Assembly: GCA_029261155.1 (NCBI GenBank)
Contig: JAJDBW010000090.1
Coordinates: forward strand, 1 to 64,000
Length of the DNA stretch: 64,000 nt
Direction: 5' to 3'
Origin: Nitrospirota bacterium
GTDB lineage: Bacteria > Nitrospirota > Nitrospiria > SBBL01 > JAADHI01
Every line of letters begins with the position of its first letter. Position 1 is the stretch's first letter. The translations under genes and the position numbers were made by a program. Under the pieces are notes generated by a model. That model was not told the origin of the DNA, searched no databases, and was given only the letters and a program-made list of their open reading frames with translations. Positions 8,342-54,432 of this stretch are shown in pieces.

Positions 8342-9892
8342 ATGAAAACATCCAGTCATTTTGCCCTCCCCGTTGTCTCCGGCCTCGCCTTCTTGGCGCT
8401 GCTCCAGACTCAGGGAGCGCTTAACACCACAAGTATCATTTCAACACTATTTTTCGTTATTGCCATCTCTTTATTTAAATCCAATTCCCTTCAAACAAAA
8501 AAGCCCCTTGCCCTAAAGGCAAGCTTGGGGCTTAGCCTTGTGCTTCTTTTGGGCTGGGTGCCAACAGCATCAGCCGCGACTTCTCCGGAGATGTTTACGG
8601 CAAACAATACCTGGATGTTGGTGGCAACCTTCTTGGTTTTCATTATGCACCTGGGTTTCGCCACGCTCGAGTCGGGACTTACCCGAGCGAAAAACACAAC
8701 GAACATCCTGTTTAAGAACACGGTCATCGTTGCGATCGGCCTGTTGACTTATGCCCTCTGCGGTTTTAATCTGATGTATCCGGGTGAGTTTAACGGCTTC
8801 ATCGGTTTTGCAGGTTTGGGTTTAAGTAATCCAGCGGGGGATGCAGGTCTTATCGGCTATGCCGATGGCGCCTATACCTATTACACCGATTTTATTTTCC
8901 AAGCGATGTTTGCCGCCACGGCGGCCACGATCGTTTCCGGTGCGGTCGCCGAAAGGGTAAAGCTGAGTAGCTTTTTGGTGTTTTCCACCCTTTTTGTTGC
9001 AATCGTTTATCCCATCGTCGGTTCCTGGAAATGGGGCGGCGGCTGGCTCGATAAAATGGGTTTTTACGATTTCGCCGGATCGACCCTGGTGCACAGCGCC
9101 GGTGGATGGGCGGCTTTGGCCTGCGTGATTATCCTAGGACCGCGCCTTGGCAAATTCGTCAATGGAAAGGTCAAGCCCATTTTGGGTCACAGCATGCCCA
9201 TGGCGACCGTGGGTGTCTTTCTCCTTTGGCTTGGCTGGTATGGCTTTAATGGCGGTTCGGTTCTCTCGGCCGATCCTGGACTGGTTTCTCTCGTCTTTGT
9301 GACCACCAGCCTTGCCGCGGCGGCAGGCGTGATCGCGTCCATGGTCACCTCCTGGGCCGTACAAAAGAAGCCCGACCTTTCGATGATTTTAAACGGCAGC
9401 CTTGCCGGTCTCGTCGGCGTGACCGCAGGGGCCGATACGGTCACCGTCACGGGTTCGATTATCATTGGTCTCGTCGCTGGCGTCATCGTGGTGTTCTCCG
9501 TCATGATGTTCGACAAACTCAAAATTGACGATCCGGTTGGCGCCCTGTCAGTTCATCTGGTTTGCGGTATCTGGGGCACCCTTGCCGTCGGGATTTTCAG
9601 CACCAATCCCGAGCACAAACTCTGGGTCCAATTTGTCGGCGTTATCGCCTACGGCATCGCTTGTTTTGCATCGGCCTACTTGATCTTTTTCGCAATTAAA
9701 ATGGTCAAAGGGGTCCGGGTCAGCGAGGAAGAAGAAATGGAAGGCTTGGATTACCATGAACACGGCATCTCGGCCTATCCGGAATTTTCTGTGAGCATGA
9801 TCTCTAGCACCGGCGCTTTTTCAGGCGGACATTCTTCGGCTTCCGGTAAAGGTGCTGGACAAGCTGGTGCAACCGACAAAGTTTTGCGCTAG
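8342..9892 (+). CDS. amt: Ammonium transporter (Amt/MEP family)
   Basis: The body from about residue 85 is a full Amt: NNTWMLVATFLVFIMHLGFATLESG, the first pore His in STLVHSAGGWAAL, WLGWYGFNGGS, and the second pore His in ALSVHLVCGIWGTLAVGIF, with about 11 membrane helices. It is longer than usual at the N-terminus. Residues about 8-45 add hydrophobic segments, and residues about 58-79 (ending PTASAA) look like a normal signal peptide. A good AAGGAG site supports the long start at 8342. It is followed after 15 bp by glnK, the PII protein that plugs Amt channels when nitrogen is abundant. Confidence 0.95.
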   Translation: MKTSSHFALPVVSGLAFLALLQTQGALNTTSIISTLFFVIAISLFKSNSLQTKKPLALKASLGLSLVLLLGWVPTASAATSPEMFTANNTWMLVATFLVFIMHLGFATLESGLTRAKNTTNILFKNTVIVAIGLLTYALCGFNLMYPGEFNGFIGFAGLGLSNPAGDAGLIGYADGAYTYYTDFIFQAMFAATAATIVSGAVAERVKLSSFLVFSTLFVAIVYPIVGSWKWGGGWLDKMGFYDFAGSTLVHSAGGWAALACVIILGPRLGKFVNGKVKPILGHSMPMATVGVFLLWLGWYGFNGGSVLSADPGLVSLVFVTTSLAAAAGVIASMVTSWAVQKKPDLSMILNGSLAGLVGVTAGADTVTVTGSIIIGLVAGVIVVFSVMMFDKLKIDDPVGALSVHLVCGIWGTLAVGIFSTNPEHKLWVQFVGVIAYGIACFASAYLIFFAIKMVKGVRVSEEEEMEGLDYHEHGISAYPEFSVSMISSTGAFSGGHSSASGKGAGQAGATDKVLR

Positions 9893-10246
<354 letters not shown>

Positions 10247-10835
10247 CAATACGCCACGCCTTCAATGCCCTTTGGGGGAGTATCTCTTTTATCGGATACT
10301 CCCCCAAACCGACCCGCCGAATCTACCCTCATTTCTATGACTAAACAAGCTTCCTCCGAATTGACAAGACCGGACCGATTGAGTTAGTAATAATACTGTT
10401 TAGACATTTGATCACCCTCACTTTCCGGAGCTCGTTCTTTCGCGTATGATCACCGTGCAATTTATCGTGCCCCTCCTTTTCGCGCTTTCCTTTCTTATTT
10501 TCCAATTTACCTATATCAACAAAATAACCATGTCAATGCATTACAGGAAACCTTGGCGGCATCACCCCACCCTTTTTAAGGCACGAGCATGTTAGCCGGA
10601 ATCCAGCAGACCACCACCGATCATCTTACCGATACTTAAGGAATCTCTGATTAATTCATGTTGTATATTGCTAATGCCAAAAGATTCCGCCTCTTTGACA
10701 CAAATCGTGAAGATAGAAGACCCGTCCCATCGGCTTCCTCCTTGGATAATACTAGTTGGCCTCTGATAGGAATCAAACCCGTCTTTAAAGTAGAACCCTC
10801 AAGTATTCAAGGACATACTCCGATAAGGCTTGCAC
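10247..10835. other. 590-bp gap between glnK and the antiporter operon
   Basis: It begins with a large hairpin (10271-10308). A weak plus-strand promoter candidate is TTGACA at 10361-10366 with TAGTAA at 10385-10390 (18-bp spacer). A short ORF at 10446-10595 would encode 49 residues with one hydrophobic helix but has no ribosome site; I regard it as unproven. The rest shows no gene that I recognise. Confidence 0.5.
10271..10308 (+). terminator. 14-bp perfect hairpin after amt-glnK
   Basis: TTTGGGGGAGTATC (10271-10284) pairs perfectly with GATACTCCCCCAAA (10295-10308) around a 10-nt loop, 24 bp after the glnK stop. There is no following T tract, so termination may need Rho or may be bidirectional. 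Confidence 0.6.
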
Positions 10836-12341
10836 ATGGAAGTTGAATCGATCAAACCCGCCCTGGTATTGCTCGTCTCTTTGGTAGGCGCAATACTCAT
10901 TCCCGCAGCACGAAGGAACCCTAATATACGCGAGGGATGTTCTGTCGCGGCGGCCCTGCTCAAGTGCGCTATCGTATTGAGTATGATCCCCGAAATTCTT
11001 GCAGGCAAGACGATCCACTACACCGTCCTGACTTTTCTGCCTGGCATCTCGTTGGCCTTTCGCGTTGATGCACTGGGCCTGATCTTTGCTACAACAGCCT
11101 CTATTTTATGGATACTAAACACCTTTTACTCCATCGGCTACATGCGCGCTCACAACGAGCCTTCCCAAACGCGTTTTTACACCTGTTTCGCGCTGACGCT
11201 TTCGGCGACGATGGGAGTCGCCTTTTCCGCCAATCTCATCACGCTTTATCTCTTCTACGAAATTTTAACGCTCGTGACCTACCCCTTGGTCGCGCATAAA
11301 GAATCGAAAGAGGCCTATGCGGGTGCGAATAAATACTTCTTTTACCTCTTAGGGACCTCAACAGCCTTTCTCTTGCCCGCCGTCATCTTAACCTACAGCC
11401 TCGCAGGAAACGGCAATTTCAACCCCAATGGGTTATTGCCTCACGATGCAAATCCCATCGTCTTGACCCTGGTCTTCCTTTTTTTCTTGTTCGGGATTGG
11501 AAAGGCAGCCATCATGCCGGTTCATTCTTGGCTTCCCGCCGCCATGGTGGCCCCCACACCGGTCAGCGCTTTGCTCCACGCCGTCGCCGTGGTGAACACA
11601 GGCGTGTTTTGCGTGTTGCGCGTCATGTTCCATGTCTTTGGCGTGGACTTAATGAAGCTCTTAAACTTGGGAACGATCACCTCTGTTTTGGCTTCCTTTA
11701 CGATTTTGTGCGCTTCCATGATCGCCCTGACCCGGGATAACCTTAAGGAAAGACTTGCCTATTCGACGATCAGCCAACTCTCCTATATTACCCTCGGCGG
11801 GGCACTGCTCTCCCCGAGCGGTATGGCAGGGGGAGTGCTTCACATTGCGAATCATGCTTTTTCCAAAATCACGCTGTTTTTTTGCGCCGGATCGATCTAT
11901 GTCGCTTCTCATAAAACGAATATCTCTCAGATGAACGGCATCGGACGGCAAATGCCCTGGACCTTGACTGCCTTTGCCGTTGCCACCTTGAGTATGATCG
12001 GCATACCTCTTTCCGCTGGCTTTGTCAGCAAATGGTATCTGGCGATTGGCACCATGGAGGCAGACCAGGTTTTAATTCTCTTCGTCCTCTTAACAAGTAC
12101 GCTCTTAAATGCCATGTACTTTATTCCCATCGTCTACCGCGCTTTTTTCCGTCCCCCTTCGGACAATGAAGCGGACCCCCATGGGGCAGGCGATAAAGAT
12201 GGCGGTGCGGACGGTACGCATCACATTCAGGAGTCTTCCCCTTTCATCGTGGTGCCCTTAATGGTGACCGCCGTTATTTCTCTGATCCTGGGTATGTTTC
12301 CCGACATCCTATTAGCGCTGGTACGACAGGTGACCGGATGA
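10836..12341 (+). CDS. Additional MrpD/NuoM-like antiporter subunit
   Basis: This 501-residue membrane protein belongs to the proton-conducting subunit family shared by Mrp and complex I. Evidence is the many hydrophobic helices, FYEILTLVTYPLVAHKES with the helix-5 Glu, GIGKAAIMPVHSWLPAAMVAPTPVSALLHAVAVV (Lys and His of the ion path), and DNLKERLAYSTISQLSYI. The ATG at 10836 with an upstream AAGG is preferred to the TTG at 10830. It heads the operon and is extra to the usual A-G set: a separate MrpD-type subunit occurs later at 15573. It overlaps the next ORF by 4 bp. It probably forms a further ion channel in the same complex. Confidence 0.88.
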   Translation: MEVESIKPALVLLVSLVGAILIPAARRNPNIREGCSVAAALLKCAIVLSMIPEILAGKTIHYTVLTFLPGISLAFRVDALGLIFATTASILWILNTFYSIGYMRAHNEPSQTRFYTCFALTLSATMGVAFSANLITLYLFYEILTLVTYPLVAHKESKEAYAGANKYFFYLLGTSTAFLLPAVILTYSLAGNGNFNPNGLLPHDANPIVLTLVFLFFLFGIGKAAIMPVHSWLPAAMVAPTPVSALLHAVAVVNTGVFCVLRVMFHVFGVDLMKLLNLGTITSVLASFTILCASMIALTRDNLKERLAYSTISQLSYITLGGALLSPSGMAGGVLHIANHAFSKITLFFCAGSIYVASHKTNISQMNGIGRQMPWTLTAFAVATLSMIGIPLSAGFVSKWYLAIGTMEADQVLILFVLLTSTLLNAMYFIPIVYRAFFRPPSDNEADPHGAGDKDGGADGTHHIQESSPFIVVPLMVTAVISLILGMFPDILLALVRQVTG

Positions 12342-12586
12342 CGAGCAAGCAAACACCAAAAAGCCAGGTATATAAATCAAAAAAAATGAAGATTCTTTAT
12401 GGAATCCTGGTCCTGATGATGGTCCTCGACGGGTTCGCACCGAGACACCATGCCCACTTTTTCTGGGATAACATCGGCGGGTTTTCGGCAATATTCGGTT
12501 TTATCGCCTGCGTGATCCTGATCTTTTTTTCAAAGGGAATCGGACACGCCTTTTTGATGAAGCGAGAGGATTTCTATGACGATTGA
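12338..12586 (+). CDS. Small membrane protein of the antiporter operon
   Basis: This 82-residue protein has two hydrophobic helices (about 18-33 and 45-66) with a short HHAHFFWDN loop between them and a charged tail (MKREDFYDD). I do not recognise a named family. It is coupled by a 4-bp overlap to the upstream antiporter subunit and by an 11-bp overlap to the downstream one, so it is very likely an integral small subunit of this particular Mrp variant. The His-rich loop facing the membrane surface is notable. Confidence 0.8.
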   Translation: MTSKQTPKSQVYKSKKMKILYGILVLMMVLDGFAPRHHAHFFWDNIGGFSAIFGFIACVILIFFSKGIGHAFLMKREDFYDD

Positions 12587-14822
12587 GTGGGTCCATCCCG
12601 CACTCTTCTTTTTTGCGGCCGCCGCAGTCATTCCTTTTGTAAAGGGTTGGGGAAAACCTATTGTATTGCTCGGCTTCCCGGCACTGGCCTTTTTCTCTCT
12701 TATGTTCTTCCCCGAGGCAAATTACGGTGCCTTTACGATCGGCGGATTTGAAGTCGTCTTTGGCCGAGTCGATAAGCTCAGCCGAGTTTTCGGCTTCGTC
12801 TTCACCCTCATGGGCGTTATCGGCATGGTCTACGCCCTCCATGTGAAGCAAAAAGGCGAGCATGTTGCTGCTTTTCTCTATGGAGGGAGCGCCTTGGGGG
12901 CCGTCTTCGCAGGCGATTTATTAAGCCTCTTTGTGTTTTGGGAGATCATGGCCTTCTCTTCCGTCTTTTTGGTCTGGTACGGCGGAAAAAAATCAAAGTC
13001 ACCCGGCATGCGTTATGTCCTGGTTCATACCTTCGGCGGCCTTTGCCTCTTGGGGGGGATTATCGTTTTTGCCGGAGAGACCGGCAGCTTGGCCTTTAAC
13101 GCCATTCCTGCCGCAGGCTTGGGAGGCTGGCTGATTTTAATCGGCTTTCTCGTAAATGCGGGCGCGCCACCCTTGCACGCCTGGCTTCCCGACGCCTATC
13201 CGGAAGGAACAATTACAGGGACTATCTTTCTCTCCTCCTTTACCACCAAAACTGCCGTTTATGTCTTGGCTCGGGGCTTCGCCGGCACCGAGATTCTGAT
13301 GTGGGTGGGAGTGCTCATGGCTCTCTATGGCGTGGTGTACGCCATGCTGGAGAACAACATCCGCAGACTGCTGGCCTACCACATCATCAGCCAGGTTGGT
13401 TTCATGGTGGCGGGTATCGGTGTGGGAACAGAGATGGCAATCAACGGCGCGGTGGCCCACGCCTTCGCTCATATTCTCTACAAAGCTCTCTTAATGATGG
13501 GTATGGGCTCCGTCATTTTCATGACCGGAAAGCGAAAAGGGACTGAGCTGGGGGGGCTTTACAAGACGATGCCTGTAACGTTCATCCTCTTTATGATCGG
13601 CGGATTTTCCATCTCCGGGGTCCCCTTTCTCTCAGGTTTTATCAGTAAATCCATGGTCATCTCCGGGGCGGCCGCAGCACACGCCCCTTTCGTGGTGATT
13701 CTACTGACCCTGGCCGCAGCCGGGACTTTTCTCTCCACGACCCTAAAGTTGCCCTATGCGGTATTTCTGGGTGAGGATAAGGGAATTAAATCTTCCGATC
13801 CGCCAAAGAACATGCTGATCGGCATGGGATTGGCTGCCTTTATCTGTATCCTCTTGGGCGTGATGCCCGATCTTCTATATCAGCTTCTCCCTTTTCCCGT
13901 GGACTACCATCCCTACACCGCAGAACATTTGTTGGGCTCCTTTCAGCTTGTGCTCGCCGTCTTGATCGGGTTTATACTCTTTTTATACAAACTTCACCCG
14001 GAAGAAACCATCAGTATCGATACCGATTGGATCTATCGTAGGGGCCCAAAAGCATTGTCTTGGCCCGCTAAAAACCCTCTGGCCCGATTAAATAATTTTT
14101 CTTACCGGACCTTTTTAGATGGAATGATTTGCCTTTCGAAATCGGTCATGCAACGCTTTCATAGCGGATATTTAAAACATTACCTCTTTACCATTATTTC
14201 TTTTGTGATGCTTTCGACCCTCATCTTTTCACTGTCTAAAGGATGGGTCTTGCATCTCGATACCCTACTCAAAATTGATGTGACGCTGGCACAAGTCCTG
14301 CCCCTAACGCTCCTCGTCTGTGCAGCATTGGCGACCGTCCTGTTTAAGAATCGCATCTCGGCCATTCTTTCTCTAGGGATGACGGGTTTCTTTGTGGCCC
14401 TTCTCTATGTGCTGATGGGTGCACCCGATCTGGCATTAACACAATATCTCGTGGAAGCCGTCTCTGTGATATTAATCCTGCTGGCCTTCTATTTTATGCC
14501 GCCCTACTTTGAGGAAAAGGCTTCGCAAAACACGAAATTCGTTAACGCTTCGCTCGCCGTATTCGTGGGTGTCGTCGTCACTTTTTATATGTTGATGGTC
14601 ATGGACAGCCACTTGGTTTCATCCATCTCAAGCTATTATCTGGAAACCAGTGAAAAACTGGCGGGCGGGCGGAATGTGGTGAATGTGGTCATCGTCGATT
14701 ACCGCGCTTTTGATACGATGTTGGAAATTTGTGTTTTCGCGATTGCCATTTTAGGCGTTTACGCGATGCTTCGACTAAAAAAGAAACCGAAGCCCCTTCA
14801 ACAGGAGCCTCCCCTGAAATGA
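12576..14822 (+). CDS. Large antiporter subunit, MrpA-like with MbhD/E-type tail
   Basis: Residues 1-480 form an antiporter module (LFVFWEIMAFSSVFLVWYGG, GAPPLHAWLPDAYPEG, NNIRRLLAYHIISQVGFMVAG, GVPFLSGFISKS). The C-terminal part carries the small-subunit domains normally fused to MrpA: LMGAPDLALTQYLVEAVSV (DUF4040/MbhD) and NVVIVDYRAFDTMLEICVF (MbhE-like). At 748 residues it is slightly shorter than typical MrpA (about 770-800). It overlaps mrpB by 4 bp. In the complex it is expected to supply one cation/proton path and the A-subunit tail that contacts the B-G module. Confidence 0.88.
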   Translation: MTIEWVHPALFFFAAAAVIPFVKGWGKPIVLLGFPALAFFSLMFFPEANYGAFTIGGFEVVFGRVDKLSRVFGFVFTLMGVIGMVYALHVKQKGEHVAAFLYGGSALGAVFAGDLLSLFVFWEIMAFSSVFLVWYGGKKSKSPGMRYVLVHTFGGLCLLGGIIVFAGETGSLAFNAIPAAGLGGWLILIGFLVNAGAPPLHAWLPDAYPEGTITGTIFLSSFTTKTAVYVLARGFAGTEILMWVGVLMALYGVVYAMLENNIRRLLAYHIISQVGFMVAGIGVGTEMAINGAVAHAFAHILYKALLMMGMGSVIFMTGKRKGTELGGLYKTMPVTFILFMIGGFSISGVPFLSGFISKSMVISGAAAAHAPFVVILLTLAAAGTFLSTTLKLPYAVFLGEDKGIKSSDPPKNMLIGMGLAAFICILLGVMPDLLYQLLPFPVDYHPYTAEHLLGSFQLVLAVLIGFILFLYKLHPEETISIDTDWIYRRGPKALSWPAKNPLARLNNFSYRTFLDGMICLSKSVMQRFHSGYLKHYLFTIISFVMLSTLIFSLSKGWVLHLDTLLKIDVTLAQVLPLTLLVCAALATVLFKNRISAILSLGMTGFFVALLYVLMGAPDLALTQYLVEAVSVILILLAFYFMPPYFEEKASQNTKFVNASLAVFVGVVVTFYMLMVMDSHLVSSISSYYLETSEKLAGGRNVVNVVIVDYRAFDTMLEICVFAIAILGVYAMLRLKKKPKPLQQEPPLK

Positions 14823-15241
14823 ATTCGCTGATCTTTAAATCCATTACCAAATTGGTCTCTCCCATTTTGATGCTCTTTTCCGTCTACCTCCTGCTCAGGG
14901 GACATCAATTGCCGGGGGGTGGGTTCATCGCGGGCTTAATGACTTCCGCCGGACTCGTCTTAATCTACCTGGCCTACGGCGCCGAGCGTTTCGACTGGCG
15001 CAATCGCAACCGTTTTTTTTATTACCTTTTTTCAGGTGGCCTGGCGCTCTCGTTTCTCACCGGCTTGGCTGGACTTTTTATGGGCGGGTATTTCCTCAAA
15101 AGCGGATTTGCTCATGTCCACATGCCCTTGATCAACGAAGATTGGGAATTCGCCTCTGCGGCTATTTTTGACATTGGGGTCTACCTTGTCGTCTGCGGCG
15201 TGTGCGTCTCCCTCATGACCCTGTTAGGAGAAGAGGAATGA
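14819..15241 (+). CDS. mrpB: Na+/H+ antiporter subunit B
   Basis: This 140-residue membrane protein matches MnhB/MrpB: SPILMLFSVYLLLRGHQLPGGGFIAGL near the N-terminus, then three more helices and EFASAAIFDIGVYLVV. The ATG at 14819 overlaps the A-subunit stop (ATGA); an in-frame start 90 bp earlier lies inside that gene and is rejected. The stop overlaps mrpC in the same way, so translation is coupled along the operon. Confidence 0.93.
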   Translation: MNSLIFKSITKLVSPILMLFSVYLLLRGHQLPGGGFIAGLMTSAGLVLIYLAYGAERFDWRNRNRFFYYLFSGGLALSFLTGLAGLFMGGYFLKSGFAHVHMPLINEDWEFASAAIFDIGVYLVVCGVCVSLMTLLGEEE

Positions 15242-15576
15242 AGCTTATCCTACCCTTGGCGATCGGCGTGCTTTTTGGAGCAGGGACCTATCTTGTGCTG
15301 CAAAAAAATATCCTTAAACTCGTGCTGGGCTTGGGACTTATTGGACATGGCGCAAATGTCATCTTAATTAGTTCGGGATGGATTGGCACCGGAAAGGTCC
15401 CGATCTTAGGAAATGAAGAAACCACACCCTTTGTCGATCCAATTCCGCAAGCCTTGATCCTCACTGCCATCGTCATCGGCTTTGCCGCCTTGGCCTTTCT
15501 CTTGGTGCTTTCGCTCCGGGTCTACCGGGACCTTAAAACAAGTAATATTGAAGAAATCAGGGGGCAGCGGGGATGA
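15238..15576 (+). CDS. mrpC: Na+/H+ antiporter subunit C
   Basis: This 112-residue, three-helix protein is homologous to NuoK/MnhC: GVLFGAGTYLVLQKNILKLVLGLGLI with the conserved helix-2 region, then DPIPQALILTAIVIGFAALAF. The ATG at 15238 overlaps the mrpB stop by 4 bp, and an upstream in-frame start inside mrpB is not used. In the complex it forms part of the small-subunit module that couples the A and D subunits. Confidence 0.93.
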   Translation: MKLILPLAIGVLFGAGTYLVLQKNILKLVLGLGLIGHGANVILISSGWIGTGKVPILGNEETTPFVDPIPQALILTAIVIGFAALAFLLVLSLRVYRDLKTSNIEEIRGQRG

Positions 15577-17051
15577 GCCAACATTTAATTCTCCCCATCC
15601 TTGTACCGCTGGGAACGGCAATTTTATTGCTCCTCCTGCGCTTTATACCTCTGGCACGCCTTGTCGTCATCGCCATTGCGGCTGTGTCTATTTTAGGGGT
15701 GAATATTTCCTTGCTATCCTCGATCTATAAACAAGGGATTCAAACCTATCAGCTTGGGGGTTGGCCTGCACCCTTCGGTATTGTCTTAGTGGGGGACCTT
15801 CTCAGTGGCATCATGATGGTCCTCGGATCTATTATTGCCCTCTGTGCCCTTTTTTACTCTTTTGGCTATTTAAAAGAAGAGGGACAACAAGCAATTTTCC
15901 ATCCCCTCTTTTTCTTTCTGTGGACAGGGACGAACGGCACTTTTTTGACGGGCGATATTTTCAATCTCTTTGTGATGTTTGAGATCATGCTCATGTCCAT
16001 ATACAGTCTCTTAACCTTGTTGGGAGACAAGAAGCAAATCGAGGCGGGCCTCAAACTCATAAGCATGGGGCTCTTGTCCTCGGCCATATTCTTAGCGGCG
16101 GTCGGCGGTATTTACGCCTTGACCGGAACACTCAATATGGCGGACTTGGCGATTAAAATTAAACCGCACGCCGATCATCCTCTGGTCAGTGCCGTCGCCA
16201 TGTTATTTATCGGGGTCTTTGGCCTAAAAGCCGCCATGATTCCGCTTCATTTCTGGCTGCCGGATGTTCACTCTTCCGCCCCGACACCCATCAGCGCCAT
16301 GTTGTCGGGCATTCTTATCAAGGTCGGCATCTATGCGATTATCCGCGTTTTTTGTTTAATATTTGTCGATCTGCAGGCGACGTTTCAGACATTTTTTTTG
16401 ACCCTGGCTTGTATCACAATGTTTATGGGGGCATTGGGTGCAGTCGCGCAAACCGATTTAAAACGGCTCTTGGCCTACAGCAGCGTCAGCCAGATTGGGT
16501 ACATCCTTATGGGTGTTGGATTTTTTACCGTGGCCGGTATGGGCGCAGCGCTCTTTTACATCATCAGCCACGGCATCATTAAAGCATCGCTTTTTTTGGC
16601 GGCCGGAATATTAAAAAAGATGAGAAGCACAACCGAAATGTCCGAACACGGCGACATGATCCAACATTCGCGGATGTTTACGATTTTTTTCTTCATTGGC
16701 GTCATCTCACTTGGCGGAATTCCTCCTTCAAGTGGTTTCTTTATGAAGTTTCAGCTCCTCAAGGCAGGCTTGGACGGTGCCTTCTACATTCCTGTGGTCG
16801 TGGCATTCACGGTCAGCCTCATCACTTTATTTTATTTATTTCAGTCCTGGCAAAAGATCTGCCTTTCGAAGCAGAAGGACCTGCCCCAAACCTTGCCTTC
16901 TTTCAAACTTCTGGCCCCGGTGGGGGTCTTGGCGATTCTCTCCTTGGCACTAGGCCTCGCCGCCTCTCCGATTAGCGAATTGACGCAGGCGGCTTCGCAA
17001 CAGCTCTTTTCACCGGAGCTTTATATTAAAGCCGTAATGGGGTCGATGTGA
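15573..17051 (+). CDS. mrpD: Na+/H+ antiporter subunit D
   Basis: This 492-residue protein has the MrpD features: FNLFVMFEIMLMSIYSLLTLLG with the helix-5 Glu, GLKAAMIPLHFWLPDVHSSAPTPISAMLSGILIKVG carrying the Lys/His of the ion route, and QTDLKRLLAYSSVSQIGYI. It overlaps mrpC by 4 bp. It is the third large antiporter-type subunit of the operon, after 10836 and 12576, and the one in the canonical position between C and E. Confidence 0.93.
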   Translation: MSQHLILPILVPLGTAILLLLLRFIPLARLVVIAIAAVSILGVNISLLSSIYKQGIQTYQLGGWPAPFGIVLVGDLLSGIMMVLGSIIALCALFYSFGYLKEEGQQAIFHPLFFFLWTGTNGTFLTGDIFNLFVMFEIMLMSIYSLLTLLGDKKQIEAGLKLISMGLLSSAIFLAAVGGIYALTGTLNMADLAIKIKPHADHPLVSAVAMLFIGVFGLKAAMIPLHFWLPDVHSSAPTPISAMLSGILIKVGIYAIIRVFCLIFVDLQATFQTFFLTLACITMFMGALGAVAQTDLKRLLAYSSVSQIGYILMGVGFFTVAGMGAALFYIISHGIIKASLFLAAGILKKMRSTTEMSEHGDMIQHSRMFTIFFFIGVISLGGIPPSSGFFMKFQLLKAGLDGAFYIPVVVAFTVSLITLFYLFQSWQKICLSKQKDLPQTLPSFKLLAPVGVLAILSLALGLAASPISELTQAASQQLFSPELYIKAVMGSM

Positions 17052-17557
17052 TGCGTGATCATCTTGTACTCAATATCATCCTCGCCCTGATTTGGTGCCT
17101 GCTCCAGCAAAAGTTTGATCTGCCGGAGTTTGTCATTGGCGGGGTACTGGGTTACATCATTATTTATTTGCACAGGACGGTGCTGGATGACCGAAAAGCG
17201 GAACGGCGCGTCCTTTCCCCGACAGCCTATTTGGCGGTCATTGCCAAAACACTGCGCTATGTGTTTGTTTTTCTCTATGAAGTGGTGAAGGCCAATATCG
17301 ATGTTGTCAAGATTGTGCTTTCCCCTAAACTCGAGATGACGCCGGGCATTATCGCCTATGAAATGGACGTAAAAACAGACGCGGGTATTACGCTCTTGGC
17401 CAATTCGATTACCCTGACCCCGGGCACGCTCAGCGTGGATATTTCGGAAGATCGGAAAACATTGTACATTCATGCCTTACATATTGAAGACGCCGAGGTC
17501 TTGAAAAAATCGATTCATGATTCGCTCGAAAAATATACGAAGGAGATTCTGGGATGA
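17051..17557 (+). CDS. mrpE: Na+/H+ antiporter subunit E
   Basis: This 168-residue protein has two N-terminal helices and a soluble C-terminal domain typical of MrpE: LVLNIILALIWCLL, then DVVKIVLSPKLEMTPGIIAYEM, LLANSITLTPGTLSVDIS and LYIHALHIEDAE. The ATG at 17051 shares one base with the mrpD stop; a GTG at 17048 is an equally possible start. The stop overlaps mrpF by 4 bp. Confidence 0.93.
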   Translation: MRDHLVLNIILALIWCLLQQKFDLPEFVIGGVLGYIIIYLHRTVLDDRKAERRVLSPTAYLAVIAKTLRYVFVFLYEVVKANIDVVKIVLSPKLEMTPGIIAYEMDVKTDAGITLLANSITLTPGTLSVDISEDRKTLYIHALHIEDAEVLKKSIHDSLEKYTKEILG

Positions 17558-17829
17558 TCGGCCTTGTCGCGAATATCGCCTTCCTGGTTTTGGCCGCCTC
17601 GCTAGGCCTTTGCTTTTACCGCTTGATCGCCGGGCCAAGCTTACCTGATCGTGTCGTCGCGGTGGATACGATCACGACGGTCATCATCGCCATGATCGCG
17701 GTCTATTGTATTAAAGAGAGCAATGCTATTTTTTACGATGCGATTCTGGTGCTCTCGATTTTGGGTTTTGTCGGAACCGTGTCCATGGCCAAGTTTTTAG
17801 GAAAGGGAGGGCGGATCTTTGGCGAGTGA
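17554..17829 (+). CDS. mrpF: Na+/H+ antiporter subunit F
   Basis: This 91-residue, three-helix protein has the MrpF signature: GLCFYRLIAGPSLPDRVVAVDTI, with the conserved Asp in PDRV, and a third helix DAILVLSILGFVGTVSMAKF. It overlaps mrpE by 4 bp and mrpG by 11 bp. Confidence 0.93.
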   Translation: MIGLVANIAFLVLAASLGLCFYRLIAGPSLPDRVVAVDTITTVIIAMIAVYCIKESNAIFYDAILVLSILGFVGTVSMAKFLGKGGRIFGE

Positions 17830-18184
17830 ATGGCTCACCCTGTTTTTATTAATACTCGGCCTCTTTTTTATCACCACGGGCTGCATCGGTTTGTACCGCA
17901 TGCCTGATATTTTCTGCCGGATGCACGCCACCTCCAAGGCCACCACCTTGGGGCTGGTCTTTATCTTGATGGCGACTTTTGTTCACCTGGGTTTTAGTGC
18001 CGTTGGATTAAAGGCTGTACTCGCCATTATTTTTGCCTTCCTCACCGCGCCCGTTGGCGCACACTTGATCTCAAGAGCCGCCTATCAACGGGGCGTGAAG
18101 CTCCACGAAGGCACGACGATCGATGAACTTCGAAAGCTCTATCCCGAAGAAGCCCTGGAAGAACACCTAAGAGATCAAGACTAA
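17819..18184 (+). CDS. mrpG: Na+/H+ antiporter subunit G
   Basis: This 121-residue protein has three helices (FLLILGLFFITTGCIGLYRM, PDIFCRMHATSKATTLGLVF, AIIFAFLTAPVGAHLISRAAY) that define MrpG. The TTG start at 17819 is chosen because GGGAGGG lies just upstream and the N-terminus then matches family length; the acidic C-terminal tail is longer than usual. It is the last gene of the antiporter operon, and no terminator is obvious before glnD. Confidence 0.92.
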   Translation: MASEWLTLFLLILGLFFITTGCIGLYRMPDIFCRMHATSKATTLGLVFILMATFVHLGFSAVGLKAVLAIIFAFLTAPVGAHLISRAAYQRGVKLHEGTTIDELRKLYPEEALEEHLRDQD

Positions 18185-18374
18185 GATCAGCTCAAAAAAA
18201 ACCCAACCCTCTCCTCGTCCCGACAGAGCCGCCTCAGCGCTTTAAAATAGACCTCCCTCAGCGCTAATCGCCTCTGAAATTAAACACGCCTTATGATAAA
18301 ATGAACGCGCATTAAGAACGACGAACTTGTCCTGTTTCGAACTGTTCAAAGGGATTAAGAAGAACCTCAATAGG

Positions 18375-18400
18375 GCTGCACCTTAGATAAAGGGTGCAGC
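18375..18400 (+). promoter_or_regulatory. Hairpin covering the glnD ribosome site
   Basis: GCTGCACC (18375-18382) pairs with GGTGCAGC (18393-18400). The purine-rich AAAGGG at 18389-18394 that would act as the ribosome site for the GTG at 18401 is partly inside the stem, so translation of glnD may depend on opening it. Confidence 0.45.
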
Positions 18401-21022
18401 GTGCTGCTTAAAATGACACCCGACTCCGATAAAATTCTCGGGGAACTCCGTCCCCTCTATACCGAAAAATACGGCGAAGTACGCGCCTTTCACGAGCAGG
18501 GCGGGGGTGGACTCTATGTGGTTAAAGCACTTTCCGATCTGGCCGACCAAATTGTATTAAAAGGGTTCCAGCGGATCAATCCCTTTCTGGCGCAACAATG
18601 GGACGGCGCTTTTATTGCGATTGGCGGTTATGGCAGGCAGGAACTGTCGCCCGGTTCCGATATCGACCTCATGTTCCTGTTTCCCCAAGGACAAGAAAAC
18701 CCGGCCAAAAAGGCGGCGGCCCAACTGCTCCAACTCCTCTGGGACCTGGGCTATAAAGTCGGACACAGCGTCCGAACGGTGAATGATTGCGTCGCCTTGG
18801 CCCGTAATGATGGGCTCATCGCAACCTCTTTGCTGGAATCGCGTTTTCTGCACGGAAACCGCCTGCTCTTCAAGGAATTTCGCGAAGCCTTTTTCTCGAA
18901 GGTCATCGATAGAGACCTAAAGTCCATCTTAAAATATTTAAATGAAGAACGCGCGCTAAAGCGGGAGAAATATGGCGCAACGCCTTATCTCCTTGAACCC
19001 AATTTAAAACAAAGCCCAGGCGGACTTCGCGATATTCATACCCTCAAATGGGTTGCTGCAGCCCGCTACCGAACGCAGCAATTGCCTCAGATTCATCAAT
19101 GGGGACATCTTTCGAATACCGAATATGCAAGCCTCGTTCAAGCACAAGACTATTTATGGCGAATTCGTAACCATCTCCATTTTATTGCGGGCAAGGCCTC
19201 CGATCACATTACGATCGAATTACAGGAAGAGATCGCCCCGTTTTTCCATTTTCCCGATCGACGCGGCCTTATGCACGAATACTATGTGCATACTGGCAGA
19301 ATACTCGAAATAGCCAAACGATTTACACGCGACGCCTTCCCCTTAAGCCGGCGAGAGAAATGGAGCCGATCCTGGAAAACGCAACAAGTGGCCCAAGGCT
19401 TTCAGATCTTCAAGGGGGAAATTTCTGCACAGAGTCTGGCCCCCTTTAAGTTTTTCCAAGACGACGAAAACACCCTGCGCCTTTTTTTGCTGGCAAAATC
19501 ACATTCCGCCCGAATTGTGGATCCCCTCCTTGAAGTCCTTCACCAGGTCACGGAGAACAAAAAAGATCTGCCACTGACGCCGAGTGCCCTTGCCCTCTTT
19601 AAAACCTTAATGACAGAACCCGGTGGCATTGCAAAGTCCATCGAAGTGATGCACAAAATTCGAATACTATGGCGTATTATTCCGGAATTTTCAGAAATTC
19701 ACTACCTCGTTCAAAAGAGTCGTTCACATGCCTACACCGTCGATGAACACAGCATCCGAGCCTTGGCTGCGGCCGAAGCGCTTCGGCTTGAAGCAGGTCC
19801 ATATCAAGAAATTTACAGTGCCGTCCCTCAAAAAGATCTTCTGCACTTGGCAATTCTCCTGCACGACATCGGCAAAGGGAGCGAAGAAGATCATAGCGCA
19901 GTGGGTGCAGATGTGGCGGCGCGCATGGCGGATCGCCTGGGCTATGGGCAAAAGGAAAAAGAGCGTCTGAGCTTCCTCGTCCGCCAGCACTTGAGCCTTT
20001 CGCAAGTGGCTCTCTTTCGAGATTTCGAGAATGAACCGATCTTGCTGCAATTCGTCAAAGAAATCCCCGACCTCGAAACGCTACAGTCTCTTTTCATTTT
20101 AACCTGTGCGGATATGCAGGCAACCTCACCCGAAATGTGGAGCGAATGGAAGGGGGACTTACTCGTCAAGCTTTATCGAGCCGCCGCTGAACTGCTCTCC
20201 GGAAAAGACCTGAACCCCAAGACGAAAAAGGCCAAGGCCATTCGGGATGAAGTGTATGCCGCAGTTCAAGGAAACTATCCAGAGGCCTGGCTCAAGGAAA
20301 TCCTCCAAACCCTGAGCATACGCTATCTATTGGCCAGCCCCATGGACAAAGTGCTTATCGATTTGGCCGCCTTGTTTCAACTTCAACAAGATCCGATTCA
20401 AGTGAAGGCGCGTTTTCTTTCAGACCAGGGCGTGACGGAATATACCTTATACACTTACGACTGGATCACCGCAGGCTTGTTTTCGAAAATGACAGGCGCG
20501 CTCTCCGCTAAAGGGCTTCAGATCTTGGCGGCACAGGTCTTTACCCATCCCAACGGCATGATCATCGATACCTTTCTGGTGATCGACCCAGACTATATGG
20601 AGCGAGTCCCAACCGACAGGACGGAAACAATATCAGAAGCCATACAACGGGTCTTAATCGGTGCAGAGACAGTGGAAGATCAGATTTTTAAGGGCCGACG
20701 CTTCGCCCGCAGAAAAAAGTCTCGCGCGAAGAAACAGAGTGTAAAGGTCGAGCTCGACAACGACAGTTCACACAGTTTTACAGTAATCGACATCTATGCC
20801 CCCGACAGTAAGGGGCTTCTATACCTCATCGCAAAAACCATTTTCAAACTCGGATTGGTCGTCCGCTCTGCAAAAATCGCCACAAAATTAGACCAGGTGG
20901 TCGATGTTTTTTATCTCCTCGGACCGGATCAGAAAAAAATTACGGACCCGGCGACCATGCAAAAAATAAAGGACCGACTCCTCCGCGAAATTCAGGAGCA
21001 TTTCCTGAATAGAACGCCCTAA
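18401..21022 (+). CDS. glnD: PII uridylyltransferase / uridylyl-removing enzyme
   Basis: This 873-residue protein has the GlnD architecture. The nucleotidyltransferase motif GGYGRQELSPGSDIDL lies at 75-90, followed by a helical linker and an HD domain (LHLAILLHDIGKGSEEDHS near 487-507). Two C-terminal ACT domains follow: YTYDWITAGLFSKMTGALS and FTVIDIYAPDSKGLLYLIAK. It uridylylates PII under nitrogen limitation and removes UMP when glutamine, sensed by the ACT domains, is high. The GTG at 18401 has an AAGGG site within a hairpin; an ATG at 18413 is the alternative. Its expected substrate, GlnK with Tyr51, is encoded at 9908. Confidence 0.95.
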   Translation: MLLKMTPDSDKILGELRPLYTEKYGEVRAFHEQGGGGLYVVKALSDLADQIVLKGFQRINPFLAQQWDGAFIAIGGYGRQELSPGSDIDLMFLFPQGQENPAKKAAAQLLQLLWDLGYKVGHSVRTVNDCVALARNDGLIATSLLESRFLHGNRLLFKEFREAFFSKVIDRDLKSILKYLNEERALKREKYGATPYLLEPNLKQSPGGLRDIHTLKWVAAARYRTQQLPQIHQWGHLSNTEYASLVQAQDYLWRIRNHLHFIAGKASDHITIELQEEIAPFFHFPDRRGLMHEYYVHTGRILEIAKRFTRDAFPLSRREKWSRSWKTQQVAQGFQIFKGEISAQSLAPFKFFQDDENTLRLFLLAKSHSARIVDPLLEVLHQVTENKKDLPLTPSALALFKTLMTEPGGIAKSIEVMHKIRILWRIIPEFSEIHYLVQKSRSHAYTVDEHSIRALAAAEALRLEAGPYQEIYSAVPQKDLLHLAILLHDIGKGSEEDHSAVGADVAARMADRLGYGQKEKERLSFLVRQHLSLSQVALFRDFENEPILLQFVKEIPDLETLQSLFILTCADMQATSPEMWSEWKGDLLVKLYRAAAELLSGKDLNPKTKKAKAIRDEVYAAVQGNYPEAWLKEILQTLSIRYLLASPMDKVLIDLAALFQLQQDPIQVKARFLSDQGVTEYTLYTYDWITAGLFSKMTGALSAKGLQILAAQVFTHPNGMIIDTFLVIDPDYMERVPTDRTETISEAIQRVLIGAETVEDQIFKGRRFARRKKSRAKKQSVKVELDNDSSHSFTVIDIYAPDSKGLLYLIAKTIFKLGLVVRSAKIATKLDQVVDVFYLLGPDQKKITDPATMQKIKDRLLREIQEHFLNRTP

Positions 21023-45620: not shown

Positions 45621-46280
45621 TTATACCGCTTCTCCTTCCCGTGGTTTTTCGATGGAACGATAATGAGGCAAACGAATAAACACCTCGGGGCCGCCACCGA
45701 GTATCGTCCAGAGGGTTGCCATAATGATTTTCAAATCGACCCAAAGCGAATGATGACGAACGTATTCCAGGCCGAGTTGAATTTTTTCAGGGGCGATCTT
45801 TTCGAGATAGTCCCGATCCGGATCGATGCTGCCTCGAAGGATCTCGCCCTCGTTCCTGAAACGGATGGAGGCATAATCGGTCATCCCAGGGCGGACCGTC
45901 AACAGTTCTTTTTCTCTTTCAGAATAAAGATCAACCGCCCAAGAAACTTGCGGCCTGGGTCCAACGAGGCTCATTTCCCCCAGAAACACATTCATCAACT
46001 GAGGCAGCTCATCCAGCTTAAACCGCCTGAGAAAGCGGCCACACCGGGTAATGCGCGCGTCTGTTTCCGCAGTTGATGTCCCGCCCAATTGCTCTGCATC
46101 TTCAACCATACTGCGGAACTTATAGATTCGAAATGGCTTTCCATAACGCCCTACCCGCGTACCGCGATAAAAGACAGGCCCCCTTGACTCACTTTTAATC
46201 AAGACAGCGAAAAGGAAAAAAAAGGGAGAAAAAATAATCAGGCCAATCGCTGAAAACACAATGTCAAAGAATCTCTTCAA
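45621..46280 (-). CDS. Initiating sugar transferase (bacterial sugar transferase family)
   Basis: This 219-residue protein has one N-terminal membrane helix (FSAIGLIIFSPFFFLFAVL) and the PGT catalytic region: GPVFYRGTRVGRYGKPFRIYKFRSM, a D/E pair in EDAEQLGG, RFLRRFKLDELPQLMNV and VGPRPQ. It places the first sugar phosphate on undecaprenyl phosphate to start the repeat unit (WcaJ/PglC type). The TTG at 46280 has GAGGG 8 bp upstream. It lacks the longer WbaP membrane domain. Confidence 0.92.
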   Translation of the reverse strand: MKRFFDIVFSAIGLIIFSPFFFLFAVLIKSESRGPVFYRGTRVGRYGKPFRIYKFRSMVEDAEQLGGTSTAETDARITRCGRFLRRFKLDELPQLMNVFLGEMSLVGPRPQVSWAVDLYSEREKELLTVRPGMTDYASIRFRNEGEILRGSIDPDRDYLEKIAPEKIQLGLEYVRHHSLWVDLKIIMATLWTILGGGPEVFIRLPHYRSIEKPREGEAV

Positions 46281-46349
46281 TACCGCGCCCTCTTTCTAAA
46301 ATCTCTTAATGATACCTAGAGATCCAAGACGTTTATATTAATGCCATGA

Positions 46350-46616
46350 TTAAATTTGGTCTTTAAAATAAGTTAAATCTTTATTGCCCAGCAATAGTCC
46401 CGGAACGCTAATGTCCTCATCGATCTCTTTCCAGTGCAAACCCGTACCCCCTCCACTCATTTCATATTTTTCCCGCTGCTCTGGAGTGGCATTCATCAAA
46501 CGGGGGAAATACGCAAGTGGAATTGAAAGCTGCCTTCCATCTGTTAGACCCACCCACATGTTTTCGCTATCGAACCAAATCCTATTCGCAGACGCTTCAA
46601 ATGTTAAAGTGTTCAT
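46350..46616 (-). CDS. DUF2442 protein of a TA-like pair
   Basis: This 88-residue protein has the DUF2442 signature (WVGLTDGRQLSIPLAYFPRL, then GLHWKEIDEDISVPGLL). Proteins of this type commonly accompany DUF4160 partners and are viewed as antitoxin-like. It overlaps the upstream DUF4160 gene by 20 bp, showing a tight pair. No activity is established from sequence. Confidence 0.8.
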   Translation of the reverse strand: MNTLTFEASANRIWFDSENMWVGLTDGRQLSIPLAYFPRLMNATPEQREKYEMSGGGTGLHWKEIDEDISVPGLLLGNKDLTYFKDQI

Positions 46617-46842
46617 ACCACTTCTCCTTTATTAGGTCTTTGTTTTCTTCGATCTTATTTTTAAACTCGTTCAATTCCTTACTGGCAAATCCATAATTAT
46701 TGACCAAGGACACTGTGGGATTTACCCAAAACTTAGCCCGGTTGGGTCCTTTACGAACATGAATATGAATCTGTTCCCGAGGATGTCCCTCATTGGAGAA
46801 GAAGTGAAACCGACATCCTTTCCATTCAAAAACGATAGGCAT
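46597..46842 (-). CDS. DUF4160 protein of a TA-like pair
   Basis: This 81-residue protein has the DUF4160 pattern: MPIVFEWKGCRFHFFSNEGH, IHIHVRKG, AKFWVNP and a charged C-terminal helix. It is the first gene of a two-gene unit with DUF2442. It is probably the toxin-like partner, by analogy with similar pairs. It lies downstream of hicAB, at the edge of a region containing a methyltransferase fragment. Confidence 0.8.
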   Translation of the reverse strand: MPIVFEWKGCRFHFFSNEGHPREQIHIHVRKGPNRAKFWVNPTVSLVNNYGFASKELNEFKNKIEENKDLIKEKWYEHFNI

Positions 46843-46911
46843 GAATCGTGATTAAGCATCCCTATTAAAATACCTGCCTCTATACAATCTTCAGCAAAAG
46901 GTCTCTTATGC

Positions 46912-46935
46912 CTCCCCCTTTGAAAAAGGGGGGAT
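46912..46935. repeat. Small C/G-rich inverted repeat
   Basis: CCCCCTTT (46914-46921) pairs with AAAGGGGG (46925-46932) around GAA. Such CCTCCCCCTTTGAAAAAGGGGGG-like elements occur as dispersed intergenic repeats in many environmental genomes. There is only one copy in this window. Confidence 0.5.
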
Positions 46936-46981
46936 TACACTTACCAGGCTGAAAATCATTCAGAGGCAAGTAATAAAATAT

Positions 46982-47035
46982 ATTATCCCAACTTCGCCGC
47001 ACAATAGATCACTTTGTCAAAGAGACGTTTTAACA
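46982..47035 (-). pseudogene. 3' remnant of a SAM methyltransferase gene
   Basis: The minus strand encodes a short frame ending DKVIYCAAKLG and a stop. It matches the C-terminus of the intact methyltransferase at 47624-48400 (KVIYCAARRSE) in both protein and DNA. It is too short to be a gene and is best read as the tail of a lost homologue, with hicAB now lying between. Confidence 0.6.
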
Positions 47036-47107
47036 TAATACCTTACTTACAGAATATCCTCCCCATCTACCCTTAGACCTCGGCTGCATACAAACATAGG
47101 GGTGCCG

Positions 47108-47320
47108 TCACAACAGTTTCCTGAATTCCTTATTGGTGAATCCCGCGTCCCTTACAATATTTCCCATTGTGATCGCGTTTACCGGATTGTGTCGTGGAAC
47201 TGTAATAATGCGGCTCCCATCCGTCATCACGATATGCTTGCCTTGACGCGCAACCCAAAAACCCGCCTTTTCCAAGGCACGAACCGCTTTCAGATGATTA
47301 ACGCCTGGAAGCTTTGGCAC
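47108..47320 (-). CDS. hicA: HicA-type mRNA interferase toxin
   Basis: This 70-residue protein has the HicA double-stranded-RNA-binding-like fold: LPGVNHLKAVRALEKAGF, the catalytic His at 29 in RQGKHIVM, then ITVPRHNPV and TMGNIVRDAGFT. HicA cleaves mRNA until neutralised by HicB. The gene lies 2 bp after hicB. The order antitoxin-toxin is the reverse of the Escherichia coli hicAB order but common elsewhere. Confidence 0.9.
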   Translation of the reverse strand: MPKLPGVNHLKAVRALEKAGFWVARQGKHIVMTDGSRIITVPRHNPVNAITMGNIVRDAGFTNKEFRKLL

Positions 47321-47322
47321 AA

Positions 47323-47520
47323 CTATGCCCCGACTTCGACTTCACGCACCGTCTTATTTCGGCTCAGGTCCGCCACAACATCCAAATACTCCGAAATAGC
47401 GTTCGTGATATTGGCCAAGGCTTCTTCCTCGGTCGCGCCCTGGGAATGACAGCCCGGCAAGCCCGGCACTGAAACGGCAAATCCTTCCTCACTTCCATCC
47501 AAAACGACTCTGTATTTCAT
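47323..47520 (-). CDS. hicB: HicB-type antitoxin
   Basis: This 65-residue protein has the HicB partial RNase H-like fold: MKYRVVLDGSEEGFAVSVPGLPGCHSQGATEEEALANI. It is the short form with no visible DNA-binding domain. A GGAGG-type site precedes the ATG. It would bind and block the HicA toxin encoded just downstream. Confidence 0.9.
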   Translation of the reverse strand: MKYRVVLDGSEEGFAVSVPGLPGCHSQGATEEEALANITNAISEYLDVVADLSRNKTVREVEVGA

Positions 47521-47623
47521 TTTTTCCTCCCGATAACCGTCATTTTACATCAGAAAGACACTTCCGATCGTTGAAATTGAGTAACTATTCTTTAAATGAA
47601 TGAAACGCTTCCCTCCACGACTT

Positions 47624-48400
47624 CTATTCACTTCTTCTCGCCGCACAATAAATTACTTTGTGTTTCCGGTCGGCTTGGCCGAAGGGCAGCGCAACAGGCG
47701 GCGAATACGTGATCATCCCCGCTTCAATTTCAGGAGGCATAGGCACCAAGTTCCCAAATACTAACCTCTTCAAGAGTTTTTTTCCATTGGCCGTCTTGGG
47801 CATCAGTCCGGATTGGACCGCCAGTTTTTTAACCGGGCGAAGCAGTCTTTGGCGCAACGAGACTTCATTGACATCTGTGCTGCCGAAACATTCAACAGAA
47901 AATCCCTGCCCCGAAAAAAGTTTTTCGAATTCCATTACACCATAATAACGATAGCTGTGGGGGCTTGGATTGAAATCATAGAGATCTTTGTTTGCCGTTG
48001 CGATGAGAACCATGCCATCGTTGCGTAAGACGCGGCGGCATTCGGAGACAAACTGTTCTGCAGATGGAATGTAGTAAAGCGCCTCGAATAGAATGATGAC
48101 ATCAAAACACTCGTTCCGATAAGGCAGCTTTTCGGCATTGAAGCGAGTGAATGGCATTCGATCTTTATAATGACCTTTTGCAATAGTGAGAATCTCGGCG
48201 GAAAAATCACCGCCGTAGATCGATTTTGAAAGACTTTTTAGATATCCCAATCCCTGTCCTGTCCCGCAAGCCACTTCTAATACACCCTTGCCGACACAAT
48301 ATTTTCCAGCCCAATAATAGCGTTGACAGATCCTTTCTAACTGTTCTAGAGAAACCTCATCTCCTGAAGTTTCTGTTATTTGCAGAAAATCTATTGCCAT
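47624..48400 (-). CDS. Class I SAM-dependent methyltransferase
   Basis: This 258-residue protein has motif I VLEVACGTGQGLGYL, motif II-like YGGDFSAEIL and FDVIILFEALYYIPSAEQFVSECRRVL, as in Methyltransf_11 enzymes. It ends KVIYCAARRSE, a tail shared with the fragment at 46982. In this locus it would modify a sugar or lipid-linked intermediate. It is followed by hicBA after about 100 bp and preceded by another methyltransferase after 10 bp. Confidence 0.85.
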   Translation of the reverse strand: MAIDFLQITETSGDEVSLEQLERICQRYYWAGKYCVGKGVLEVACGTGQGLGYLKSLSKSIYGGDFSAEILTIAKGHYKDRMPFTRFNAEKLPYRNECFDVIILFEALYYIPSAEQFVSECRRVLRNDGMVLIATANKDLYDFNPSPHSYRYYGVMEFEKLFSGQGFSVECFGSTDVNEVSLRQRLLRPVKKLAVQSGLMPKTANGKKLLKRLVFGNLVPMPPEIEAGMITYSPPVALPFGQADRKHKVIYCAARRSE

Positions 48401-48410
48401 CAGATCCAGA

Positions 48411-50244: not shown

Positions 50245-50258
50245 ACTTTGATATTTTA

Positions 50259-51425: not shown

Positions 51426-51451
51426 GAACCCTCTCTTTCAGCGCATAAACA

Positions 51452-54406: not shown

Positions 54407-54432
54407 ATCCCTTGTCTAAGTTAATGAATTTA

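Follow-up and report, generated by a model that had tools for sequence, protein, structure and literature searches.

Gene Content of the Operon

The window analyzed here is the whole 64,000-nucleotide stretch of DNA, taken from contig C89 of a 3.56 Mb Nitrospirota genome (G000). Nine open reading frames on its plus strand, spanning 10836-18184, are joined head-to-tail by overlaps of 4, 11, 4, 4, 4, 4, 4, and 11 nt (Table 1). Pfam and NCBIfam identified eight of the nine products, namely two large antiporter-like proteins (D1 and MrpD), MrpB, C, E, F, and G, and a fusion protein that ends in the MbhD/MbhE-type C-terminal half of MrpA. The sole product without a match is S (82 aa). With MrpB to MrpG and the MrpA C-half in one unit, this is an operon of the Mrp/Mnh (CPA3) type, as an earlier sequence-only reading had proposed; the short overlaps and the presence of three large antiporter-like subunits (D1, L, and MrpD) were also recognized correctly in that reading.

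Other parts of the same description need correction. The gene order is D1-S-L::A-B-C-D-E-F-G. The operon is not the usual A to G series plus an extra subunit, because its "A" is a chimera in which the NuoL-like half of MrpA is swapped for D1-S-L. The small protein is encoded by the second gene and not at the front. D1 is not MrpD/NuoM-like, but forms a separate clade (support 100/100) and contains the histidine of MrpA/NuoL. We found no genes for NuoA-K, NuoM, NuoN, or redox subunits adjoining the operon in the window, and besides the operon's own MrpD no other MrpD-type match at E ≤ 1e-100 in G000. A promoter scan returned 7 matches, fewer than the mean of 8.9 in shuffled sequences. Terminator-like matches (20 versus 11.3 in shuffles) are scattered inside genes. 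Elsewhere in the window, the G+C content drops from about 0.51 to 0.37-0.45 (46000-58000), suggesting an acquired gene block.

Table 1. Features of the nine-gene operon and of the parts of the fused gene
Feature	Position	Strand	Evidence
D1, large antiporter-like subunit, 501 aa, own clade	10836-12341	+	PF00361 6e-52; NF006236 above cut-off; clade support 100/100
S, small membrane protein, 82 aa	12338-12586	+	family alignment; AlphaFold2 model; no Pfam, NCBIfam, or PDB family
L::MrpA-C, whole fused gene	12576-14822	+	Proton_antipo_M domain plus MbhD and MbhE domains
L part of the chimera, residues 1-480, complex I/oxidase-type antiporter-like domain	12576-14015	+	identity; trees; NF009310 above cut-off
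Junction from L type to MrpA type, about residues 481-529	14016-14162	+	sliding identity; junction alignment; low confidence in model
MrpA C-half, residues 530-748, MbhD and MbhE domains	14163-14822	+	PF13244, PF20501; identity to canonical MrpA; alignment to 7qru_A
MrpB	14819-15241	+	PF04039; 80-90% identity to same-family MrpB
MrpC	15238-15576	+	PF00420
MrpD, canonical	15573-17051	+	PF00361; 7qru_D 1e-107
MrpE	17048-17557	+	PF01899
MrpF	17554-17829	+	PF04066
MrpG	17819-18184	+	PF03334

The Operon Contains a Chimeric MrpA

For comparison we used the eight genomes of the same family, G000 included, each of which holds one operon with a close MrpD. The first gene of this operon codes for a canonical MrpA of 785-798 aa in five of the eight (G139, G175, G201, G159, and G199). 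It lies directly behind the P-II gene in the first four, and the stretch from G199 showed no P-II. The contig of G200 stops inside mrpA, and the 71 residues that it retains from the N-half look canonical (21% identity to the window). D1, S, and the fused gene stand in the place of mrpA only in the window genome and in G198.

The fused protein changes its relatives along its length. Residues 1-480 are about 29% (28-29%) identical to canonical MrpA, versus 63-81% for residues 530-748 (six other same-family genomes). With the L gene from complex I of OFTM336, the window protein shares 79% identity over residues 3-526; in blocks of 40 residues this identity is mostly 72-95% (54% in the initial block) as far as about residue 480, beyond which the sequences are unrelated. 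The identity switch falls between residues 481 and 529, and both chimeras look alike across this junction. A predicted model of the fusion is usable for residues 1-470 only, with pLDDT values below 50 at positions 501-531. The "MrpA" of this operon is a chimera of a complex I-type L with a retained MrpA C-half.

G198 repeats the complete order D1-S-L::A-B-C-D-E-F-G, with BLAST identities of 76% for D1, 73% for S, and 79% for the fused protein (87% over the L part and 69% over the MrpA C-half). Since the same gene order recurs in a second genome, we can exclude chance as its origin. The pN/pS ratios between the two chimeras (0.18-0.23 for D1, S, and the fused gene) indicate purifying selection. 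We scanned 395 Nitrospirota genomes, scoring two candidates in each, and found the full-length chimera in two; a search of the 18 genomes of the order with all candidates scored found it in two as well. In the literature searched, and in the consulted text of the papers cited here, PMC12361115, and PMC7415380, we found no description of an L::MrpA-C chimera, the S family, or the missing lysine discussed below; such a report may exist.

The chimera occupies the same genomic locus as the canonical operon of related genomes. In the window (8342-21022) the operon lies between amtB-glnK upstream and a GlnD-like glnD downstream, and the canonical mrpA..G operons at L115 and L133 are flanked by amtB-glnK and by a GlnD-like ORF of 864 or 868 aa. 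The upstream ammonium transporter of the window is 86-87% identical to those at L115, L132, and L133, and 51% identical to that of G198. This setting, at least partly common to canonical operons of the same family, may hint at control by nitrogen status.

Protein S Belongs to a Widespread Family without a Name

Two helices are predicted for S (residues 7-33 and 49-73), and the AlphaFold2 model is a helical hairpin (mean pLDDT 78, pTM 0.51). Positively charged residues at both termini suggest that both ends would reside in the cytoplasm. The most conserved positions among 46 aligned sequences are Y80 (46), G54 (45), E77 (45), K66 (44), F41 (43), and H38 (42). The HHAH loop pointed out by the sequence-only reading is therefore conserved in its second histidine, but not as a motif, as the first and third histidines vary; with H38 alone conserved, we rejected HHAH as a conserved metal site. 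We also rejected the possibility that S is a spurious ORF (48 family members align, Y80 is invariant, and pN/pS is 0.23) or a relocated MrpC/NuoK or other named subunit (only stray matches to 1-3 of the 46 members).

Matches to any one Pfam or NCBIfam family were limited to at most 3 of the 46 members, and no PDB sequence matched. The same reading had rightly described a small two-helix protein, which is indeed nameless in these libraries. Its label "new" holds insofar as the libraries searched do not describe S, but not with regard to distribution, since the survey that it had recommended revealed a nameless family recurring across Nitrospirota, archaea, and plasmids. S occurs in 39 of 198 Nitrospirota genomes (one-sequence search, E ≤ 0.01), in 39 of 196 genomes of the archaeal phylum to which the ANME-2 genome belongs (profile search, E ≤ 0.001), and in 99 of 72,556 plasmid records (Sinorhizobium 67, Rhizobium 18, Ensifer 11, Phyllobacterium 2, Pararhizobium 1). 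Within 72 fetched loci plus the window, all 56 S genes have an L gene on their own strand no more than 320 nt away, and 44 are also near D1; this count excludes duplicates (L012, L013, L015, L016) and is biased toward association because an S or L match was the reason for fetching each locus.

The D1-S-L Cassette in Other Hosts

The window operon contains the D1-S-L cassette that is a feature of green complex I. In Nitrospirota this cassette is found among the genes of complex I, among those of bd-like oxidases, and in Mrp operons whose gene order differs. S is located between D1 and L also in OFTM336 (L102) and on pSymA of S. meliloti (L119), where the order is NuoJ, NuoK, D1, S (WP_003526961), L, NuoM, NuoN. 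In rhizobial green complex I, S is a candidate subunit as well; it is annotated there just as "hypothetical protein". Variants without S contain D1-L (L103, L116, L117) or D1 (L050). The complex I of G000 itself (L049, G000:C18:47000-65000) is encoded in the order NuoK, S, L, two NuoM, NuoN; it has no D1 and includes the sole NuoD locus found in the assembly. In all 20 stretches fetched from the archaeal phylum by S matches, L adjoins S, and five of these (L166-L169, L173) are without D1. In these five, another L-like gene adjoins the S-L pair. The remaining neighbors checked with Pfam at L166 are neither complex I nor Mrp subunits, so that S-L may work alone.

The oxidase clusters form a second group of hosts. 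L050 (G000:C15:12000-27000) is a cytochrome c-rich cluster coding for an 812-aa bd-like oxidase protein and for antiporter-like subunits of 525 aa (D1 type) and 598 aa (other type); it is similar to TO_2 of 'Ca. Manganitrophaceae'. Oxidase clusters that encode D1 and L occur also in a second family of the same order (L052, L106, L108, L112), with S downstream of L and in two copies at L052. An additional locus of G000 (L051, 2295-8574 of C58) codes for a 1089-aa protein next to antiporter-like proteins of 430 and 572 aa, an arrangement that may resemble the DabA/DabB system for inorganic carbon uptake. As far as the available text of PMC9040806 goes, TO_2 is confined to one family, and MrpD-like pairs are described for Complex_I_3 and TO_2 of 'Ca. 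Manganitrophaceae' and for rhizobial green complex I, in agreement with the complex I and oxidase hosts seen here; this text does not mention the small protein S, and the word "hypothetical" is absent from its main part.

Ancestry of D1 and L

We compared trees of 42 L-type or MrpA sequences (rooted on distant MrpA) and of 39 D1 sequences (midpoint-rooted) with the genomic surroundings of each gene. D1 and L each form a separate clade (100/100), and D1 retains its own clade in a tree with NuoL and MrpA that gives no resolution of the deep branching. The L proteins of the window and of G198 form a three-member clade with one complex I L (100/96), nested in a wider clade of ten that comprises eight complex I proteins and the two chimeras (98/94). 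The window D1 falls into a clade of 16 sequences from oxidase clusters, complex I, and chimeras plus one unclassified (100/99); its nearest relatives are four complex I sequences and the unclassified one (88/86, moderate support versus the oxidase sequences). The phylogeny called for by the sequence-only reading hence groups both subunits with genes of green complex I and bd-like oxidases. The simplest reading of these trees is that a complex I-type cassette would have moved into an Mrp operon, a direction suggested by the nesting.

The remaining operon genes place the window with G175 and G159, and not with G198. A core-operon tree that forces both chimeras together is rejected (AU p 0.0052), which eliminates simple descent in which a single ancestor passed on the complete chimeric operon. 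Even so, the two chimeras seem to share D1, L, and the junction. The AU rejection for the core genes calls for transfer of the cassette, a return to the canonical state in relatives, or two independent but similar events. We also considered loss of green complex I as a trigger in both chimeric genomes, but dropped this idea because G198 retains a green-type complex I (contigs C34 and C30). This copy (L186, L187) is cut inside the L gene at two contig ends. The idea does fit the G000 assembly, which has one NuoD locus; each of the seven other family genomes has two or more.

Functional Residues and Proposed Mechanism

Pairs of a TMH7 lysine and a TMH5 glutamate are coupling points of Mrp, and MrpA contains in addition a switch histidine on TMH8, according to the accessible text of PMC7419157 and PMC9568556; the former calls the TMH7 lysine absolutely conserved and essential. 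D1 of the window contains the residue set of NuoL and MrpA-N (TMH5 E142, TMH7 K223, switch H248, and TMH12 K399), and both the TMH7 lysine and the histidine are present in 39 of 39 D1 sequences and in 6 of 6 canonical MrpA. MrpD contains E137, K219, K250, K337, and K392. The fused protein does not contain the canonical NuoL-like N-half of MrpA, as judged from its identity (about 29%) and from its residues: L has E123, K225, K303, and K358, but N194 replaces the TMH7 lysine and L219 occupies the position of the switch histidine. Asparagine is found at this lysine position in 65 of 66 L-class proteins (serine in one), and the histidine position is occupied by leucine or methionine. Across 72 sequences (66 L-class and 6 canonical MrpA), the TMH5 glutamate is present in 71, and the TMH8 and TMH12 lysines in 72 each. 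Finally, E627 and E717 of the C-half align with conserved C-half glutamates of Bacillus MrpA (7qru_A) that we take, from published text, to be those of the sodium path. The parts for proton entry of the MrpA half would now reside in D1, and the sodium module would be fused to a subunit without the TMH7 lysine.

These observations suggest the following scenario. A canonical group-1-like mrpABCDEFG operon may have lost the NuoL-like N-half of MrpA and gained D1-S-L of the green complex I type in its place, after which L would have been fused to the retained C-half of MrpA. The nine products most likely form one complex, in which a row of antiporter-like subunits, arranged as D1-L-MrpD by homology, would adjoin a sodium module that is left as it was (MrpA-C with MrpB, C, E, F, and G). 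D1, with its Lys/Glu pair and MrpA switch histidine, would take over periplasmic proton entry, L could serve as a relay or spacer that hands the charge signal of D1 on to MrpD, and S, packed against L, may help in assembly or coupling. Taken as a whole, including a single nine-product complex with Na+/H+ antiport activity, this explanation of the locus as a rebuilt, cassette-swapped Mrp-type cation/proton antiporter seems to us reasonably probable.

It is possible, if somewhat doubtful, that L has lost its channel function and that D1, S, and L merely provide a structural stand-in for MrpA-N, leaving two active antiporter-like subunits and an ordinary stoichiometry. As to the parts this is a sub-case of the explanation above; as to mechanism it is a rival. 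The nearly invariant asparagine, the missing switch histidine, and the published importance of the TMH7 lysine speak for it, and L could take no part in charge transfer at all. Against it, L retains the TMH5 glutamate together with the lysines of TMH8 and TMH12, which a dead channel would not be expected to do. Without the TMH7 lysine, L may not be an independent channel, which leaves a third channel unproven. The earlier proposal of a change in ion stoichiometry through a third channel is not supported in this form. Operons of the Mrp type that carry one more MrpD-like gene are already known (PMC5703873, PMC7784846, PMC12342949, as far as their accessible text goes). A further, unlikely variant is that S and L constitute a two-protein antiporter unit in which the nearly invariant membrane lysine K66 of S, or its conserved histidine and acidic residues, would replace the missing lysine of L. 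Such a portable coupling cassette could serve complex I, bd-like oxidases, and Mrp alike, and would provide three proton-handling subunits per sodium site in the present operon, with a higher H+/Na+ ratio.

Alternative Origins

The locus might also be an ordinary Mrp operon with an additional MrpD, of group 3 or of the archaeal/Nitrospira type with three large subunits, and inherited as such. Such operons exist: the accessible texts describe mrpCD1D2EFGAB in Aphanothece and mrpFGBCDDAE in Microbacterium (PMC5703873), and NuoM/L-like genes behind mrpD in 'Ca. N. alkalitolerans' (PMC7784846). The Mrp loci of other Nitrospirota and of archaea examined here follow the order E-F-G-AC-B-C-D-D1-S-L with a free-standing L. 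The window operon has neither this order nor a free-standing L, and the L::MrpA-C fusion is limited to the window and G198. The ten D1 proteins of natural three-large-subunit Mrp operons form their own clade (100/97) apart from the window D1, and neither tree groups the window D1 or L with this Nitrospirota/archaeal type, but with genes of redox complexes. Relatives of the locus have a canonical MrpA. Ordinary inheritance is disfavored by these trees, and we judge it quite unlikely.

Even less probable is that D1 (and S), although encoded in this operon, work in the 2M-type complex I of G000 (C18, S-L-M1-M2-N). That complex is without D1, which is present in the related 2M clusters L103, L116, and L117, and G000 has a single NuoD where other family members have two or more. 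On the other hand, D1 from those clusters belongs to another clade than the window D1, D1-S-L is joined by overlaps, and G198 encodes, besides the chimera, a distinct green-type complex I that has a D1 of its own. We consider it very improbable that the chimera arose from faulty assembly or binning: both genomes look like metagenome-assembled genomes and the complex I copy of G198 is split over two contigs, but two genomes of different genera agree in order, overlaps, and junction at 73-87% identity, and with about 29% protein identity between L and canonical MrpA-N we see no repeat that would invite a misjoin.

Comparison with Known Systems

The locus is stranger than first described, as it combines a natural chimera of Mrp and a respiratory cassette with a nameless, widespread family of small proteins. 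How proton movement is handed over between antiporter-like subunits, and to sodium or redox chemistry, is an open question for both Mrp and complex I. The domain swap that we propose links an Mrp sodium module to respiratory-type pump subunits, one of which lacks a supposedly essential lysine. Set against the canonical operon found in a sister species, the chimera offers a way to learn which of the subunits determine coupling and stoichiometry.

Canonical group 1 Mrp/Mnh (CPA3) operons share with the window the B, C, D, E, F, and G subunits, the MrpA C-half, the gene order, and the locus; the window differs in that L replaces the NuoL-like half of MrpA and in the presence of D1 and S. Group 3 and archaeal-type Mrp operons (Aphanothece, 'Ca. 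N. alkalitolerans', and the ANME-2 loci L014/L018) likewise encode three large subunits. The loci from ANME-2 and other Nitrospirota also contain D1-S-L, but with a separate L, in another gene order, and from another clade than the window. MBS of Pyrococcus is, like the window operon, an Mrp-derived complex with an added MrpD-like subunit, but contains a redox module. Green complex I of rhizobia and Complex_I_3/TO_2 of 'Ca. Manganitrophaceae' possess the same D1 and L, called MrpD-like there; unlike the window operon, they are redox enzymes without the MrpA C-half and without MrpB, E, F, and G.
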